DNA of 64,000 nucleotides from Phycisphaerae bacterium (GTDB taxonomy: Bacteria; Planctomycetota; Phycisphaerae; SM23-33): contig WRDM01000001.1 of NCBI GenBank assembly GCA_009783465.1, forward strand, positions 62,001 to 126,000. The letters are read 5' to 3'. How positions within the stretch are numbered: position 1 is the first letter of the stretch; each line of letters opens with the position of its first letter. Below, piece by piece: positions 2,186-60,675 of the stretch. The notes under the pieces were generated by a model that was not told where the DNA came from, searched no databases, and worked only from the letters and a program-made list of their open reading frames with translations. A program made the translations under genes and the position numbers.

Positions 2186-2288
2186 CGACCTCCGGGTGAT
2201 CACAGGCTTGCCGTTTTGCGCTATAGAACGTTTCGAACAGCGCAAAACGGCAAGCCATGCGGTCGGCTCACGCCAAACCCGGAGGTCG
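2186..2288. repeat. TTTGCG-family palindrome (variant) upstream of bamA
   Basis: The inner stem GGCTTGCCGTTTTGCGC pairs with GCGCAAAACGGCAAGCC. A separate outer stem, CGACCTCCGGGT (2186-2197), pairs with ACCCGGAGGTCG (2277-2288). It lies between the hcp fragment and bamA. The inner arm is a diverged version of the family also seen at 58784. Confidence 0.7.
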
Positions 2289-7796: not shown

Positions 7797-7975
7797 CGGA
7801 AATCCGAAATCCGAAGCACGAAATCCGAAATAAATTCCAACATTTCAAAGGAAGAAAATTCCAAACGTTCGCGCTCTTCATGCGCCTTGACGTATGACAT
7901 GTATAAGCGTTTGGAATTTTTCTTCTTTGGAAATTTGGAATTTGTTTCGGATTTCGAATTTAGGATTTCGAATTT
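7797..7975. repeat. ATCCGA-family palindrome before histidine kinase gene
   Basis: Two arms of about 65-70 bp are built from AAATCCGAA-like units (left) and TTCGGATTT-like units (right). They continue into AATTCC...CAAACG against CGTTTGGAATT, and enclose a loop of about 40 bp. Confidence 0.7.
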
Positions 7976-13077: not shown

Positions 13078-13239
13078 AAAAAGCCACTAGCCACTAGCCA
13101 CTAGCCACAAGGTAGGTAAATCCTGCCACAAATCACACGATTCAGATCGCTCGTATTCATGTGTCCTTCCCGCTTTCACTATCTTTTTACAACCGACTCT
13201 CCATACCTTGTGGCTAGTGGCTTGTGGCTAGTGGCTTTC
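13078..13239. repeat. TAGCCA-family palindrome between phoB and phoR
   Basis: The arms are AAGCCACTAGCCACTAGCC, then ACAAGGTA, and TACCTTGTGGC, then TAGTGGCTTGTGGCTAGTGGCTT. The loop is about 95 bp. The inner pairing CCACAAGG/CCTTGTGG changes to CCACCAGG/CCTGGTGG in the copy at 24891-25072. It separates two genes expected to be co-transcribed. Confidence 0.85.
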
Positions 13240-15076: not shown

Positions 15077-15375
15077 GGCCTCCCCGGACTCGCGCGGGGG
15101 TGCCGGGAATAAGCCGCGGAGCGGCGTCGTTTATAGCCCAGGGCGAGCCGTACTCGGCGAGCCCTGGGTTCGCGACTCTTTCATGGCCAAGCCCCATAGG
15201 GGCGTCTTATTGTGCCTTGCACGCCGACGGTCATCGTACGGTAAGACGCCCCTACGGGGCTTGAATGTTATAAAGAAACTTTCCCCAGGGCTCGCGGAGT
15301 ACCGCTCGCCCTGGGCTATAGACGACGCCGCTCCGCGGCTGTGGTCCGGCACTCCCACGCGCGACCGGGGAGGCC
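15077..15375. repeat. Triple-nested palindrome between pstS and pstC
   Basis: This 299-bp structure has concentric arms from three unrelated units. The outermost is GGCCTCCCCGG (15077-15087) with CCGGGGAGGCC (15365-15375). The middle is ATAGCCCAGGGCGAGC with GCTCGCCCTGGGCTAT. The innermost is AAGCCCCATAGGGGCGTCTT with AAGACGCCCCTACGGGGCTT. The arm GCCGCGGAGCGGCGTCGT also pairs with its partner before pstC. It fills the gap 14992-15382, where no gene is visible. Confidence 0.85.
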
Positions 15376-15382
15376 GCTCCAC

Positions 15383-16357
15383 ATGAGTACGGCAACACAG
15401 TCCGAAACGAAAATCGAATCACCGATGCTGGAGCGGCCACTGTTGTTGACGGCCTCTCAAAACCGTAGCGGCTGGCTGTTGAGTCACGCCGGACGGACGT
15501 TGTTCATGCTCGTCACGGCCGTGTCGGTCGTGGCGGTGGCGTTGATTTTCGTGTTCATCGTTCGCGAAGCCTGGCCGTTCTTCGCGTCGCGCGGGGTGGC
15601 CGAACCCTTGGGCTCCACCGCGTGGGAGCCACAGCCGCACGGGGGCAACGCCGATCAGTTCGGCATGGTCGCGATGATTTTCGGCTCGCTCTACGTGACG
15701 GCCGGCGCGATGATCCTGGCCGTGCCGGTGGGCATCCTGGCCGCCGTCGTCCTCAGCGACATCGTGCCCTTCCGCGTCCGCCAGGCCGTCAAACCCGTCG
15801 TCGAAATCCTCGCGGCCATTCCGTCGGTCGCGTACGGATTCTTCGCCGTCCTCATCCTCGCCCCGCTCATGCAGACTCACCTGGGACTGTCCAGCGGAAC
15901 CAACGCATTCAACTCCATGCTCATGCTGGCGGTCATGGCCATTCCGACCATCGTCAGCGTGGCCGAGGATTCACTCTCTGCCGTGGGGCGCGAACTTCGC
16001 GAAGCCTCCTACGCCTGCGGGGCCACGCGGGCCGAGACGCTGTGGAAGGTCGTCATTCCCGCCGCCCACAACGGCATCATCGCCGCGGTGGTGCTGGGCG
16101 TCATGCGGGCCGTCGGAGAGACAATGCTGGTCTGGATGGCCTCGGGCAACGCCAACCGCATCCCAGGCCCGTGGTGGAACATCACCGAGTCGGTCCGCAC
16201 CATGACGGCCACCATCGCCGGCGAAATGGGCGAAGCCGCCGTCGGCTCCATGCACCGCCACGCCCTGTTCGCGGTCGGCTTGATCCTGCTGCTGTTCTCG
16301 CTGGGATTGAATCTGATGACGGAATGGCTGTTGTCGAGATCAAGGAGGAAGGCGTGA
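15383..16357 (+). CDS. pstC: Phosphate ABC transporter permease PstC
   Basis: This 324-residue permease has about six TM helices, the first at about 35-60 (TLFMLVTAVSVVAVALIFVF). The binding-protein-dependent permease domain contains the EAA-type loop ELREASYACGATRAETLW. I place the start at 15383 (MSTATQSE), since in-frame sequence further upstream is palindrome. It pairs with PstA to form the inner-membrane phosphate channel. Confidence 0.92.
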   Translation: MSTATQSETKIESPMLERPLLLTASQNRSGWLLSHAGRTLFMLVTAVSVVAVALIFVFIVREAWPFFASRGVAEPLGSTAWEPQPHGGNADQFGMVAMIFGSLYVTAGAMILAVPVGILAAVVLSDIVPFRVRQAVKPVVEILAAIPSVAYGFFAVLILAPLMQTHLGLSSGTNAFNSMLMLAVMAIPTIVSVAEDSLSAVGRELREASYACGATRAETLWKVVIPAAHNGIIAAVVLGVMRAVGETMLVWMASGNANRIPGPWWNITESVRTMTATIAGEMGEAAVGSMHRHALFAVGLILLLFSLGLNLMTEWLLSRSRRKA

Positions 16358-16359
16358 TC

Positions 16360-16482
16360 ATTTTCACCACAGAGACACAGAGAATCACAGAGCGTTTTGA
16401 TCGTCTTCGAAATGCCCTTCGCAAAGGACACTCGAGTACGGCCCAAGCCCTCTGTGGTCTTCTGTGCCTCTGTGGTGAAAAT
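16360..16482. repeat. CACAGAG-type palindrome between pstC and pstA
   Basis: The left arm ATTTTCACCACAGAGACAC, continuing AGAGAATCACAGAG, pairs with CTCTGTGGTCTTCTGTGCC, continuing TCTGTGGTGAAAAT. The loop is about 60 bp. It begins two bases after the pstC stop. Confidence 0.8.
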
Positions 16483-16505
16483 AACCGCTCCCAAGGGGGA
16501 AACCG

Positions 16506-19023: not shown

Positions 19024-19113
19024 ATGTTTTTACAGCCCCTGGCCGTTTGCGTTGCAGGACGAGTCCGGCGCCGGGCTCGTTCTACAGCGCAAACGGCCAG
19101 GGGCTGTAAACAT
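19024..19113. repeat. TTTGCG-family palindrome between pstB and porin gene
   Basis: The arms are ATGTTTTTACAGCCCCTGGC, then CGTTTGCGTTG, and CAGCGCAAACGGCC, then AGGGGCTGTAAACAT. The inner loop folds again (GACGAGTCCGGCGCCGGGCTCGT). Confidence 0.85.
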
Positions 19114-20640: not shown

Positions 20641-20684
20641 GCATCGGACACAACCGATACGTAGAAAAGAATGGGGATAGATAG

Positions 20685-20770
20685 GGCTCTGCCGGTTTGC
20701 GTTGTTGAACGTTGTGAACAAAAGAACGTGCTGTAGTTCACAACGCCCCGCAACGCAAACCGGCAGAGCC
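20685..20770. repeat. TTTGCG-family palindrome
   Basis: The stem GGCTCTGCCGGTTTGCGTTG pairs with CAACGCAAACCGGCAGAGCC, with a loop of about 46 bp. It lies between the convergent porin and URO-D-like genes (gap 20641-20849). Confidence 0.85.
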
Positions 20771-20849
20771 ATATTTGCATCAATTCCGTAATCCCTGAAT
20801 CCCCGCTAAAAAGAAATTCGCGGGAATTCGCGGTATTCGCGGCGGTTTT

Positions 20850-22968: not shown

Positions 22969-23011
22969 GCGCAAACACATGTGTGTCCCCATTTTTCGCA
23001 CGAGGTTCCGG

Positions 23012-23135
23012 TTCAGCGCGCCTGGCCGCAGGCCCTGCCAGTTTGCGTTGTAAGACGTTATGGGCGACAAAGCGTTTTGTTTGTCACAACGATTTACAAC
23101 GCAAACTGGCAGGGCCTGCGGCCAGGCGCGCTGAA
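23012..23135. repeat. TTTGCG-family palindrome, long arms
   Basis: The arms of about 42 bp are perfect: TTCAGCGCGCCTGGCCGCAG, then GCCCTGCCAGTTTGCGTTG, then TAA, against the exact complement ending GGCCAGGCGCGCTGAA. It lies in the gap 22969-23217, which has no gene. Confidence 0.9.
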
Positions 23136-23217
23136 TACGAAGGTCACACGCAGAACCGGAAAACGTACACGCGTTCATTCTGGACGATTGGCTTGTTGCC
23201 CTCGTTGCGGTCGGTGC

Positions 23218-24839: not shown

Positions 24840-24890
24840 GGTCTCTCCTTTCTGAGAGGTTGTACGTTATGGGAGAATGTAGCTTATACC

Positions 24891-25072
24891 AGCCACTAGC
24901 CACAAGCCACTAACCACCAGGTATGGCGAAACTTGTCCTGATTCAGACCTCATTGTTCTGTTCACCGAACGTCGAGTCTGCGAAGCCACAAGACCACTCT
25001 CTCGAACGTCTGGAACGCTTTTACCGAAACACACCGCAAACCCTGGTGGCTAATGGCTTGTGGCTAGTGGCT
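24891..25072. repeat. TAGCCA-family palindrome
   Basis: The arms are AGCCACTAGCCACAAGCC, then ACTAACCACCAGG, and CCTGGTGGCTAATGGC, then TTGTGGCTAGTGGCT. The loop is about 125 bp. The inner pair CCACCAGG/CCTGGTGG is a compensated variant of the copy at 13078. Confidence 0.85.
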
Positions 25073-25076
25073 GCCG

Positions 25077-29998: not shown

Positions 29999-30130
29999 GT
30001 ATTCAGGCGCGACCGGCCACAGGCCCTGCCAGTTTGCGTTGTGAGACGGTGTGAGCGACGGAACGCTTCGCCTGTCACAACGACCTACAACGCAAACTGG
30101 CGGGGCCTGTGGCCGGTCGCGCCTGAATAC
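29999..30130. repeat. TTTGCG-family palindrome, long arms
   Basis: The arms GTATTCAGGCGCGACCGGCC, then ACAGGCCCTGCCAGTTTGCG, are followed by a loop and the complement ending GGCCGGTCGCGCCTGAATAC. The flanking part of the arm is unlike other copies yet complementary. The rest of the gap 29913-30337 shows only a possible -10 (TACAAT near 30217) for transketolase. Confidence 0.9.
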
Positions 30131-32281: not shown

Positions 32282-32316
32282 CGTATAGCGACGTTTCGCC
32301 GTCAGGAACGCTTCGC

Positions 32317-32380
32317 AACGCAAACTGGCAGGGCCTGTGAAAACGTGAGAATGTTTTCACAGGCCCTGCCAGTTTGCGTT
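32317..32380. repeat. TTTGCG-family hairpin, tail-to-head, before RAYT gene
   Basis: AACGCAAACTGGCAGGGCCT, then GTGAAAAC, folds on an 8-base loop to GTTTTCACAGGCCCTGCC, then AGTTTGCGTT. The right half doubles as the left end of the transposase-bearing unit at 32353-33090. Confidence 0.85.
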
Positions 32381-33090
32381 GTAAATCATTATAGTACGAA
32401 GCATCTTGACTCTCGTAGAAAAGGACCTGACCACATGATCCTCGCGACGCATGTCATCCTGACCGGGTATGGCCATTGGCTGCCCAACGACGTGCGGGGA
32501 AGTTATTCAGAAACCGTTTTTATCCCCCCGATCGCCGAACTCGGACCGCTCCATCATGGGCGAAAACCCGTTCAGCCATCCACGCCAGAACTGCGAAAAT
32601 TCCACAATCAGGCCCAAGCGGTGCTGACCCACTCCGTCCATTGGTTTTCGACCGAAGAGCGGAACGCAATCCGCGACGCATTCGCCCGGCTGTGTCAGGA
32701 ACGACGGTTCGTCTGTTACGCTGGTGCCATTCTATCAAACCATATTCATGTCCTGATTGAACGAAACTACCTGCCCCCACCGACAATCCATGACCTGCTT
32801 AAGCAATACGCAACCCAGGCTGTCCGAGCGTTTGGCTTCGTGCCTGTGAAACACCCCGTGTTCAACGCTGGCATCGCAACCGTGTATAAATACACCCCCG
32901 CGGAAATACGTCAATGCGCGAAATACATTACGGACAATTTCGCGAAACACAAATTCCCGACAGAACGCTACGAATTCGTCAGTGATTACAAGGAAAAATG
33001 GATGCAGCGGCGAATAACCTACGAATGAACCGTAGGCCGCTTCGTTGTCTGGAGTGTTCGACAACGCAAACGGGCAGGGCCTGTGAACAC
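32353..33090 (+). mobile_element. REP-type autonomous unit: RAYT gene between palindromic arms
   Basis: The left arm (32353-32382, GTTTTCACAGGCCCTGCC, then AGTTTGCGTTGT) and right arm (33061-33090, ACAACGCAAACGGGCAGG, then GCCTGTGAACAC) are inverted repeats with 2-3 mismatches. They carry the same core as about ten gene-less palindromes in the window. Next to the arms, TACGAAGC and GCTTCGT also pair. The transposase gene sits where the other copies have a short loop. Confidence 0.8.
32435..33028 (+). CDS. REP-associated tyrosine transposase (RAYT, Y1/HUH family)
   Basis: This 197-residue protein has the HUH motif HIH at residues 103-105 (ILSNHIHVLIERN). A downstream helix carries a candidate catalytic tyrosine (Tyr164, QCAKYITDNF). 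The N-terminus HVILTGYGHWLPNDVRG resembles Y1_Tnp transposases of the RAYT group. Such single-copy enzymes nick single-stranded REP hairpins, and they are thought to have spread REP sequences. The start at 32435 excludes palindrome-derived codons. It sits between arms of the hairpin family scattered through this window. Confidence 0.8.
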   Translation: MILATHVILTGYGHWLPNDVRGSYSETVFIPPIAELGPLHHGRKPVQPSTPELRKFHNQAQAVLTHSVHWFSTEERNAIRDAFARLCQERRFVCYAGAILSNHIHVLIERNYLPPPTIHDLLKQYATQAVRAFGFVPVKHPVFNAGIATVYKYTPAEIRQCAKYITDNFAKHKFPTERYEFVSDYKEKWMQRRITYE

Positions 33091-45197: not shown

Positions 45198-45248
45198 CGA
45201 AATCGCCCGACGCGGAGAAAGCGTTGGGGAGTCGAAAAATCTTCTGCG

Positions 45249-45338
45249 ATGGCTCCGCCTGTTTGCGTTGTAGGACGGTGTGGACTACAAAACGTTTTGC
45301 ATTGCACAACGTTCTACAACGCAAACAGGCGGAGCCAT
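45249..45338. repeat. TTTGCG-family palindrome
   Basis: ATGGCTCCGCCTGTTTGCGT, then TGTAGGACG, pairs with CGTTCTACAACGCAAAC, then AGGCGGAGCCAT. The core is shared but the outer arm GGCTCCGCC is unique to this copy. Confidence 0.85.
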
Positions 45339-45357
45339 AGCCGCATCGTAAATCGCT

Positions 45358-46593: not shown

Positions 46594-46711
46594 GCGACAA
46601 GACTGTTAGGCTATTAGGCTGTTAGACTGTTAGACGCAGGCTTATGTATATTTTGGCCTAATGATGTATAAGCCTGCGTCTAACAGCCTAATAGCCTAAC
46701 AGTCTTGTCAC
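46594..46711. repeat. TGTTAG-family palindrome
   Basis: CGACAAGACTGTTAGGC, then TATTAGGCTGTTAGACTG, pairs with CTAACAGCC, then TAATAGCCTAACAGTCTTGTC. The inner segment GACGCAGGCTTATG pairs with CATAAGCCTGCGTC-like sequence. The TPR gene stop lies in its right end. Confidence 0.8.
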
Positions 46712-47983: not shown

Positions 47984-48078
47984 TTGTTCTACAACGCAAA
48001 GAGGCAAGCCATTTCGAGCGGTTTGTTCCAATCGCCCGCTTTACGGGTAGAATGAGAGAAGGTAATCGTGGAGTTCGC

Positions 48079-49627: not shown

Positions 49628-49742
49628 AGACTGTTAGACTATTAGGCTATTAGACTGCTAGGCGCAGGCTAATGAAGCCCTTGGCCTAATGATTCATAAG
49701 CCTCTCCCTAACAGTCTAACAGCCTAATAGTCTAACAGTCTA
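49628..49742. repeat. TGTTAG-family palindrome between zwf and pgl
   Basis: AGACTGTTAGACTATTAGGC, then TATTAGAC, pairs with CTAACAGCCTAATAG, then TCTAACAGTCT. The pgl ribosome site AGGAGG lies immediately after the right arm. Confidence 0.8.
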
Positions 49743-58772: not shown

Positions 58773-58783
58773 TCGAAATGACG

Positions 58784-58884
58784 TGGATGTGGCTTGCCGG
58801 TTTGCGCTGCAAAACGCTCCTGACGACAAGACTACGTTTTGTCGTCAGGAGCGTTTTGCAGCGCAAACCGGCAAGCCACATCCA
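58784..58884. repeat. TTTGCG-family palindrome with perfect 46-bp stem
   Basis: TGGATGTGGCTTGCCGGTTT, then GCGCTGCAAAACGC and TCCTGACGACAA, is followed by a 9-base loop and the exact complement. It sits between the convergent PEP-CTERM and ffh genes. It is the longest uninterrupted stem in the window. Confidence 0.92.
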
Positions 58885-58900
58885 TGTCAACCGTTTGTCG

Positions 58901-60539: not shown

Positions 60540-60675
60540 TCCTGTTCCGGCGCCACTGGCCGCAGGCCCTGCCAGTTTGCGTTGCGAAACGTTGTGAGCG
60601 ACGGAACGCTTCGCTTGCCACAATGATCTACAACGCAAACTGGCAGGGCCTGTGGCCAGTGGCGCCGAAACAGGA
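60540..60675. repeat. TTTGCG-family palindrome, long arms
   Basis: TCCTGTTCCGGCGCCACTGG, then CCGCAGGCCCTGCC and AGTTTGCGTTG, pairs with CAACGCAAACTGGC, then AGGGCCTGTGGCC and AGTGGCGCCGAAACAGGA. The loop core (GTTGTGAGCGACGGAACGCT) nearly matches that at 30040-30065. Confidence 0.9.

Follow-up and report, generated by a model that had tools for sequence, protein, structure and literature searches.

A RAYT-like transposase gene framed by the arms of a REPIN-type hairpin family in a Phycisphaerae genome

Introduction

How is a Y1-type transposase gene related to the hairpins scattered around it, and could one have given rise to the other? The question is raised by a 64,000-nt stretch of DNA from a Phycisphaerae bacterium (contig WRDM01000001.1, positions 62,001 to 126,000; hereafter the window), in which such a gene lies at 32.3-33.1 kb between inverted arms whose core recurs elsewhere.

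RAYT genes were described as always flanked by two inverted REPs (Nunvar and co-workers, PMC2817692). Inverted REP doublets that fold as one hairpin were defined as REPINs by Bertels and Rainey (2011; PMC3116915), who suggested an IS200-like ancestor whose ends may have given rise to REPINs; the origin of REPINs and their degree of dependence on one enzyme were raised in the same paper as open questions. A 2013 survey described TIRtrons, RAYT-like genes between long TIRs with TIR dimers elsewhere, and also REP dimers within longer palindromes (PMC3733652). Single-stranded REPs are cleaved and joined by TnpA-REP (PMC8266576). An earlier note on this DNA had regarded paired arms as unusual for REPs, a contrast that is not supported: REPINs (PMC3116915) and TIRtrons (PMC3733652) already have them.

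Our results indicate that the locus is a RAYT/REPIN (REPtron/TIRtron) system from a clade without the GTAG tag; the kind is already known and the lineage is new. The unit at 32.3-33.1 kb is quite probably a REPtron/TIRtron in which the RAYT-type Y1 gene stands between the arms that its product recognizes, with the scattered hairpins as its REPINs.

The gene and its predicted protein

The 197-aa protein carries the motif NHIH (H103, H105) and Tyr164, the HUH and single-Tyr Y1 residues of a RAYT, as the earlier note had read; its position between inverted arms was likewise confirmed (Table 1). H103 and Y164 were invariant in an alignment of 22 relatives, and an N-terminal signature, GYGHWLPNDPRGS, is common to them. 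The Tyr motif is YITDNF in the window protein, and the relatives' consensus is YIExNP (YI..NP). An enzyme match was found in 29 of the 60 genomes searched, this one included.

Family models recognized the protein below their thresholds. Pfam Y1_Tnp scored it at 18.5 bits (cut-off 23) and matched 12 of the 22 family members. NCBIfam REP_Tyr_transpos (NF047646) gave 25.2 bits (cut-off 80); it is the best and almost the sole family for the enzyme's relatives, of which 21 of 22 match. The AlphaFold model (pLDDT 86) was matched by Foldseek to ISDra2 (2xma), IS200 (2f4f), and the E. coli RAYT-REP complex (4er8), with E values from 1.7e-4 to 2.6e-4, and the predicted structure thus has the IS200/TnpA-REP fold.

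The enzyme resembles E. coli TnpA-REP in its predicted fold, in its HUH/Tyr residues, and in the inverted REPs that flank the gene (REPtron; 4er8; PMC8266576), whereas the GTAG guide and the C|T cleavage site are not recognisable here and identity in the structural match is about 12%. With TnpA-Y1 class 3 and subclass 2.6 (PMC6006769) it shares an occurrence in Planctomycetes (class 3) and atypical secondary structures in many copies; the Tyr motif YI..NP/NF differs from the YV..EQ (YV[VI][AENY]EQ) of class 3. With this locus the RAYT/REPIN pattern reaches a clade of Planctomycetota that goes undetected at current family cut-offs.

Structure and number of the hairpins

The genome is a planctomycete-type MAG of 2.48 Mb in 70 contigs; it is 70% complete, so further RAYTs may be missing from the assembly. 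The named relatives of its RAYT point to Phycisphaerae or a nearby group. With up to three mismatches, the core CTGCCAGTTTGCGTTGT had 16 matches in the window against 0.12 expected from shuffles. Every hairpin that the earlier note had listed is present, and so is the half arm near 47987 (Table 1). The window copies are all intergenic, save for overlaps with over-long or doubtful ORF starts. In a search of the whole genome with the arm core, which the earlier note had proposed as a check, 323 arms were found against 8 in a reversed-pattern control. The genome has three copies of the gene, one of them intact.

Table 1. Gene, arms, and hairpins located in the window
Feature	Position	Strand	Remarks
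Gene-less hairpin	2186..2274	.	12-nt short spacer, diverged core
Gene-less hairpin	19029..19110	.	28-nt spacer, GCC..GGC variant
Gene-less REPIN, subfamily B	20681..20774	.	44-nt spacer
Gene-less REPIN, subfamily A	22983..23164	.	44-nt spacer, long outer stem
Gene-less REPIN, subfamily A	29999..30130	.	44-nt spacer
31-bp hairpin upstream of gene	32316..32381	.	minus arm plus the unit's left arm
Left arm of gene-bearing unit, GTTTTCACAGGCCCTGCCAGTTTGCGTTGT	32353..32382	+	
RAYT-like Y1/HUH transposase gene	32435..33028	+	197 aa, NHIH and Tyr164
Right arm of gene-bearing unit	33061..33090	-	ends 16 nt before galE-like ORF at 33107
Gene-less REPIN, subfamily B	45246..45341	.	44-nt spacer
Solitary right arm	47987..48015	-	within another repeat (GATGCGATGGCC family)
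Gene-less hairpin	58779..58889	.	47-nt spacer, 54-bp palindrome, almost perfect
Gene-less REPIN, subfamily A	60540..60675	.	44-nt spacer

The hairpin census covered 1.24 Mb, half of the genome, read as stretches. It yielded 99 hairpins with a 39-47 nt spacer, exactly 44 nt in 64 of them. Shorter spacer forms also occurred, as did a long class with spacers of about 182-195 nt; extrapolation from this half gives a whole-genome total of about 200 hairpins. What is repeated thus has the make-up of a REPIN, a pair of inverted REPs that are separated by a short spacer and fold together into a single hairpin. In the long class, a second palindrome (GACTTCGCGAAGACCGAGCGGGATTACACGG...) occupies the loop (L091 10788-11001, L092 10642-10853, L120 5691-6025, and similar copies), and in L120 5691-6025 a third palindrome is nested within the second.

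Among 61 aligned copies, the 27-bp stem was 91% paired. The covariation score, calculated on the whole structure, was 0.263 against 0.098 for shuffled alignments, and none of 500 shuffles scored as high; in the structure given this score, the inner-stem portion was misregistered by a gap column, and the 91% figure refers to the 27-bp stem. The least symmetrical positions lie in the spacer, which is conserved and self-complementary only in part, so the element has an orientation. The consensus tails are TTTGCGTTGT and CGCAAA, and the GT[AG]G tetranucleotide of the classical REP is absent from the foot.

These hairpins agree with RAYT/REPIN systems (PMC3116915) in that two inverted REPs and the spacer between them form a single hairpin, in lying between genes in hundreds of copies, in the compensatory changes of their stems, and in having one cognate transposase gene. 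They differ in lacking the GT[AG]G tag, in their arms of 30-46 bp (outer stem included), in the gene's location in the loop position of one doublet, and in their planctomycetotal host. As in TIRtrons (TIRYT; PMC3733652), a RAYT-like gene lies between TIRs unrelated to GTAG REPs and dimers of the TIR are found elsewhere; there the TIR families were moderately sized, while about 200 dimers are estimated here, and within this one genome each subfamily has an intact or a broken gene to which it can be assigned.

A reading of the hairpins as host transcription terminators or RNA processing signals, their likeness to the gene flanks being incidental, is very improbable: they are intergenic and very stable, as it would have them, but a 15-nt core and an asymmetric, conserved spacer are common to them, they are specific to a single genome, near-identical copies stand at unrelated places, and no Rfam family matches them.

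The gene in the loop position

The unit lies between the end of a transketolase-like ORF and the galE-like ORF (names by reading the sequence), and its gene has on either side, as RAYT genes do, an inverted palindrome of REP type that is found in many copies across the genome. The earlier note had both arms carrying the same core; that of the downstream arm is in fact CTGCCCGTTTGCGTTGT, with one mismatch. The two arms do bracket the gene, and a third one, at 32315, had been overlooked. It pairs with the left arm to form a 31-bp hairpin directly 5' of the gene, with a polarity opposite to that of the scattered hairpins.

The 99 hairpins were split by their outer arm into subfamily A (GGCCCTGCC, as flanking the intact gene) and subfamily B (GGCTNNGCC or GGCTTGCC, as flanking the broken genes). 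The 22 nt that lie just inward of each arm of the gene unit resembled the corresponding spacer half in gene-less hairpins more closely than shuffled controls did. This likeness was found for the intact unit and for the unit with a frameshifted gene on contig C48, the former being nearer to subfamily A and the latter to B. Given this likeness to the hairpin spacer, the gene sits where a hairpin has its loop, as had been proposed.

Enzyme state and recent copying

The two broken genes are only 56-61% identical to the intact one in protein sequence. The copy on C12 has an internal TAG and adjoins a complete TC-type hairpin; the frameshifted copy on C48 lies between TG-type arms. A unit that transposes in the manner of IS200/IS605 would leave near-identical gene-bearing copies, and one intact gene with two diverged, broken ones was found instead.

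The two subfamilies differed in age. A sibling at least 90% identical was present for 37 of the 59 A hairpins (maximum 98.6%) and for 0 of the 40 B hairpins (orientation-aware comparison; Fisher p 4e-12, which is only a guide since hairpin copies are non-independent events). When A was downsampled to 40, an average of 23 hairpins had such a sibling, and never fewer than 13 in 500 draws. The closest A pairs were on different contigs with almost unrelated flanks. Of the two subfamilies, only the one matching the intact enzyme thus shows recent copying, a correlation in which subfamilies are assigned to genes by their flanking arms only. Such a contrast in age would be expected if a REPIN were coupled to an active enzyme of its own.

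An intact enzyme and two broken ones, each beside its own hairpin subfamily in one genome, make a natural comparison in which recent copying tracks enzyme state. This matched set within a single genome is what the locus adds to the known systems.

Related genomes

The core was not above background in 34 other genomes of the family. Terminal inverted repeats exceeded shuffles at 23 of 55 RAYT loci (that of the window and those of relatives), and most of the 23 carry a related core, GCTTGC-TTTNGCG (GCTTGC[CG]-NTTTNGCG). In G030, whose enzyme is among the closest, this looser core had about 100 matches against 9 in the control. The REPINs of this genome are tight doublets of opposite polarity, CGCCAAACGGCAAGCC and GGCTTGCCGTTTGGCG with 12 nt between them, and their spacing is very uniform (L146-L159). 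Its RAYT gene, on C126, lies between two complete REPINs, which means that the loop position is not universal. Related enzymes thus accompany related but differently assembled hairpins.

Hairpins in strains that lack a RAYT of this subgroup would, according to the earlier note, speak against its reading. G021, of the same genus as G030, touches on this in part: no RAYT of this type was found there, and a related REP core showed a modest excess (25 matches against 4 in the control). Relic REPs left after the loss of a RAYT would also account for this excess.

Origin and spread of the hairpins

The spread of the hairpins likely depended on the window enzyme, because the gene is in the loop position, its inner ends are spacer-like, and recent copies occur only in the matching subfamily. 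In the mechanism that we propose, REPINs would be inverted doublets of the unit's arm around a conserved 44-nt spacer. Where DNA is single-stranded, as on the lagging-strand template, the enzyme would bind the small GGC-NNN-GCC hairpin together with the TTTGCGTTGT tail; Tyr164 would nick next to the arm, and the excised hairpin strand would be transferred to a new single-stranded site. Binding, nicking, and transfer are modelled on the biochemistry of the E. coli and S. maltophilia TnpA-REP. Gene-less REPINs would have arisen when such a unit lost its gene, their later spread being in trans, and the gene unit itself, with one intact and two broken, diverged copies, would hardly move.

We tentatively extend this to a general scheme, to which we give somewhat less than even chances: REPINs may be internal-deletion derivatives of RAYT units, a subfamily may stop spreading once its own enzyme breaks, and related lineages may have amplified either the doublet with the gene in its loop, as here, or the opposite-polarity flanking doublet, as in G030.

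The opposite order of events, in which REPINs are older and one of them took up the gene into its loop, is less likely, though it has a share of the evidence. Palindromes of this genome, REPINs included, may have further palindromes nested in the loop, and the arrangement in G030, with complete opposite-polarity REPINs on both sides of the gene, would suit it. The split spacer beside the gene is expected from either direction. Capture agrees poorly with the intact unit and its frameshifted counterpart on C48, whose proteins are only about 61% identical and whose genes have the same placement between arms, and with the inverted arms that lie close to the gene in the enzyme's relatives too; it is simpler to assume that gene and arms became associated once, long ago, and that the gene was later lost.

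It is unlikely that a different enzyme, or errors of copying such as template switching and gene conversion, spread the hairpins and that the RAYT-like protein is a domesticated host factor. The genome does have two other Y1 genes, but that on C23 is flanked by a different repeat, and the arms of the intact RAYT match the sole subfamily with recent copies. Across elements, the outward extension of stems by complementary sequence private to each copy exceeds expectation, as from template switching, and some copies resemble slippage deletions (L106 11110-11230, L115 15270-15400); copies at unrelated flanks, however, could not be produced by gene conversion.

According to the earlier note, the gene-less copies look like non-autonomous derivatives moved by this enzyme. 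The link to the enzyme is supported, since the matching subfamily alone has recent copies; transposition itself we infer, no clean empty site having been found either by joining flanks within the genome or at orthologous sites of G030 and G021. The within-genome search yielded palindromes of a CACAGAG family with and without a REPIN, but divergence of the arms prevented a clean junction from being read. In the comparison of G030 with G021, the REPIN was missing from G021 at one orthologous spacer, with intergenic DNA too diverged to align, and the other orthologous sites fell at synteny breaks. No target-site rule was found for the hairpins, and a scan of viral contigs for the arm gave no match. 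That REPINs sit mostly at the tip of foreign palindromes was considered and rejected, as the excess pairing of the outer flanks was only about twofold and would account for a minority only.

Within the CACAGAG family, the REPIN is exactly central in L105 1047-1300 and L118 10708-10961 (REPIN sites L105 1137 and L118 10798), and palindromes without an insert are L099 16080-16280, L098 8340-8530, and L123 9150-9340; the window has a palindrome of this type at 16351-16491. Outer palindromes of subfamily A from which the REPIN is missing occur at L106 11110-11230, L115 15270-15400, and L082 5680-5800. Half-arm remnants are kept in L106 and L115, possibly as deletion scars or from imprecise excision.

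Other repeats in the genome and the window

The Y1 transposase gene on C23 (L013, 13560-13904) has the flanking repeats CCCTGGGCTACCC and CGCCCCTTCGGGGC. Across 1.24 Mb the motif CCCTGGGCTACCCAA was matched 55 times, with no match in the control; gene and repeats are therefore probably a second RAYT/REP system in this genome.

Several other repeats were observed in the window. Facing arms of tandem GCCACTAGCCACTA units lie at 13080-13238 and 24890-25073, and this unit had 202 matches in 1.24 Mb and 0 in the control. Palindromes of TTAGGC / GTTAGAC units lie at 46596-46709 and 49628-49741, with 59 unit matches in the sample. Two large unrelated inverted repeats are located at 15077-15375 (92-nt arms, 87% complementary, 115 nt apart) and at 7800-7975 (68-nt arms, 82% complementary, 40 nt apart).
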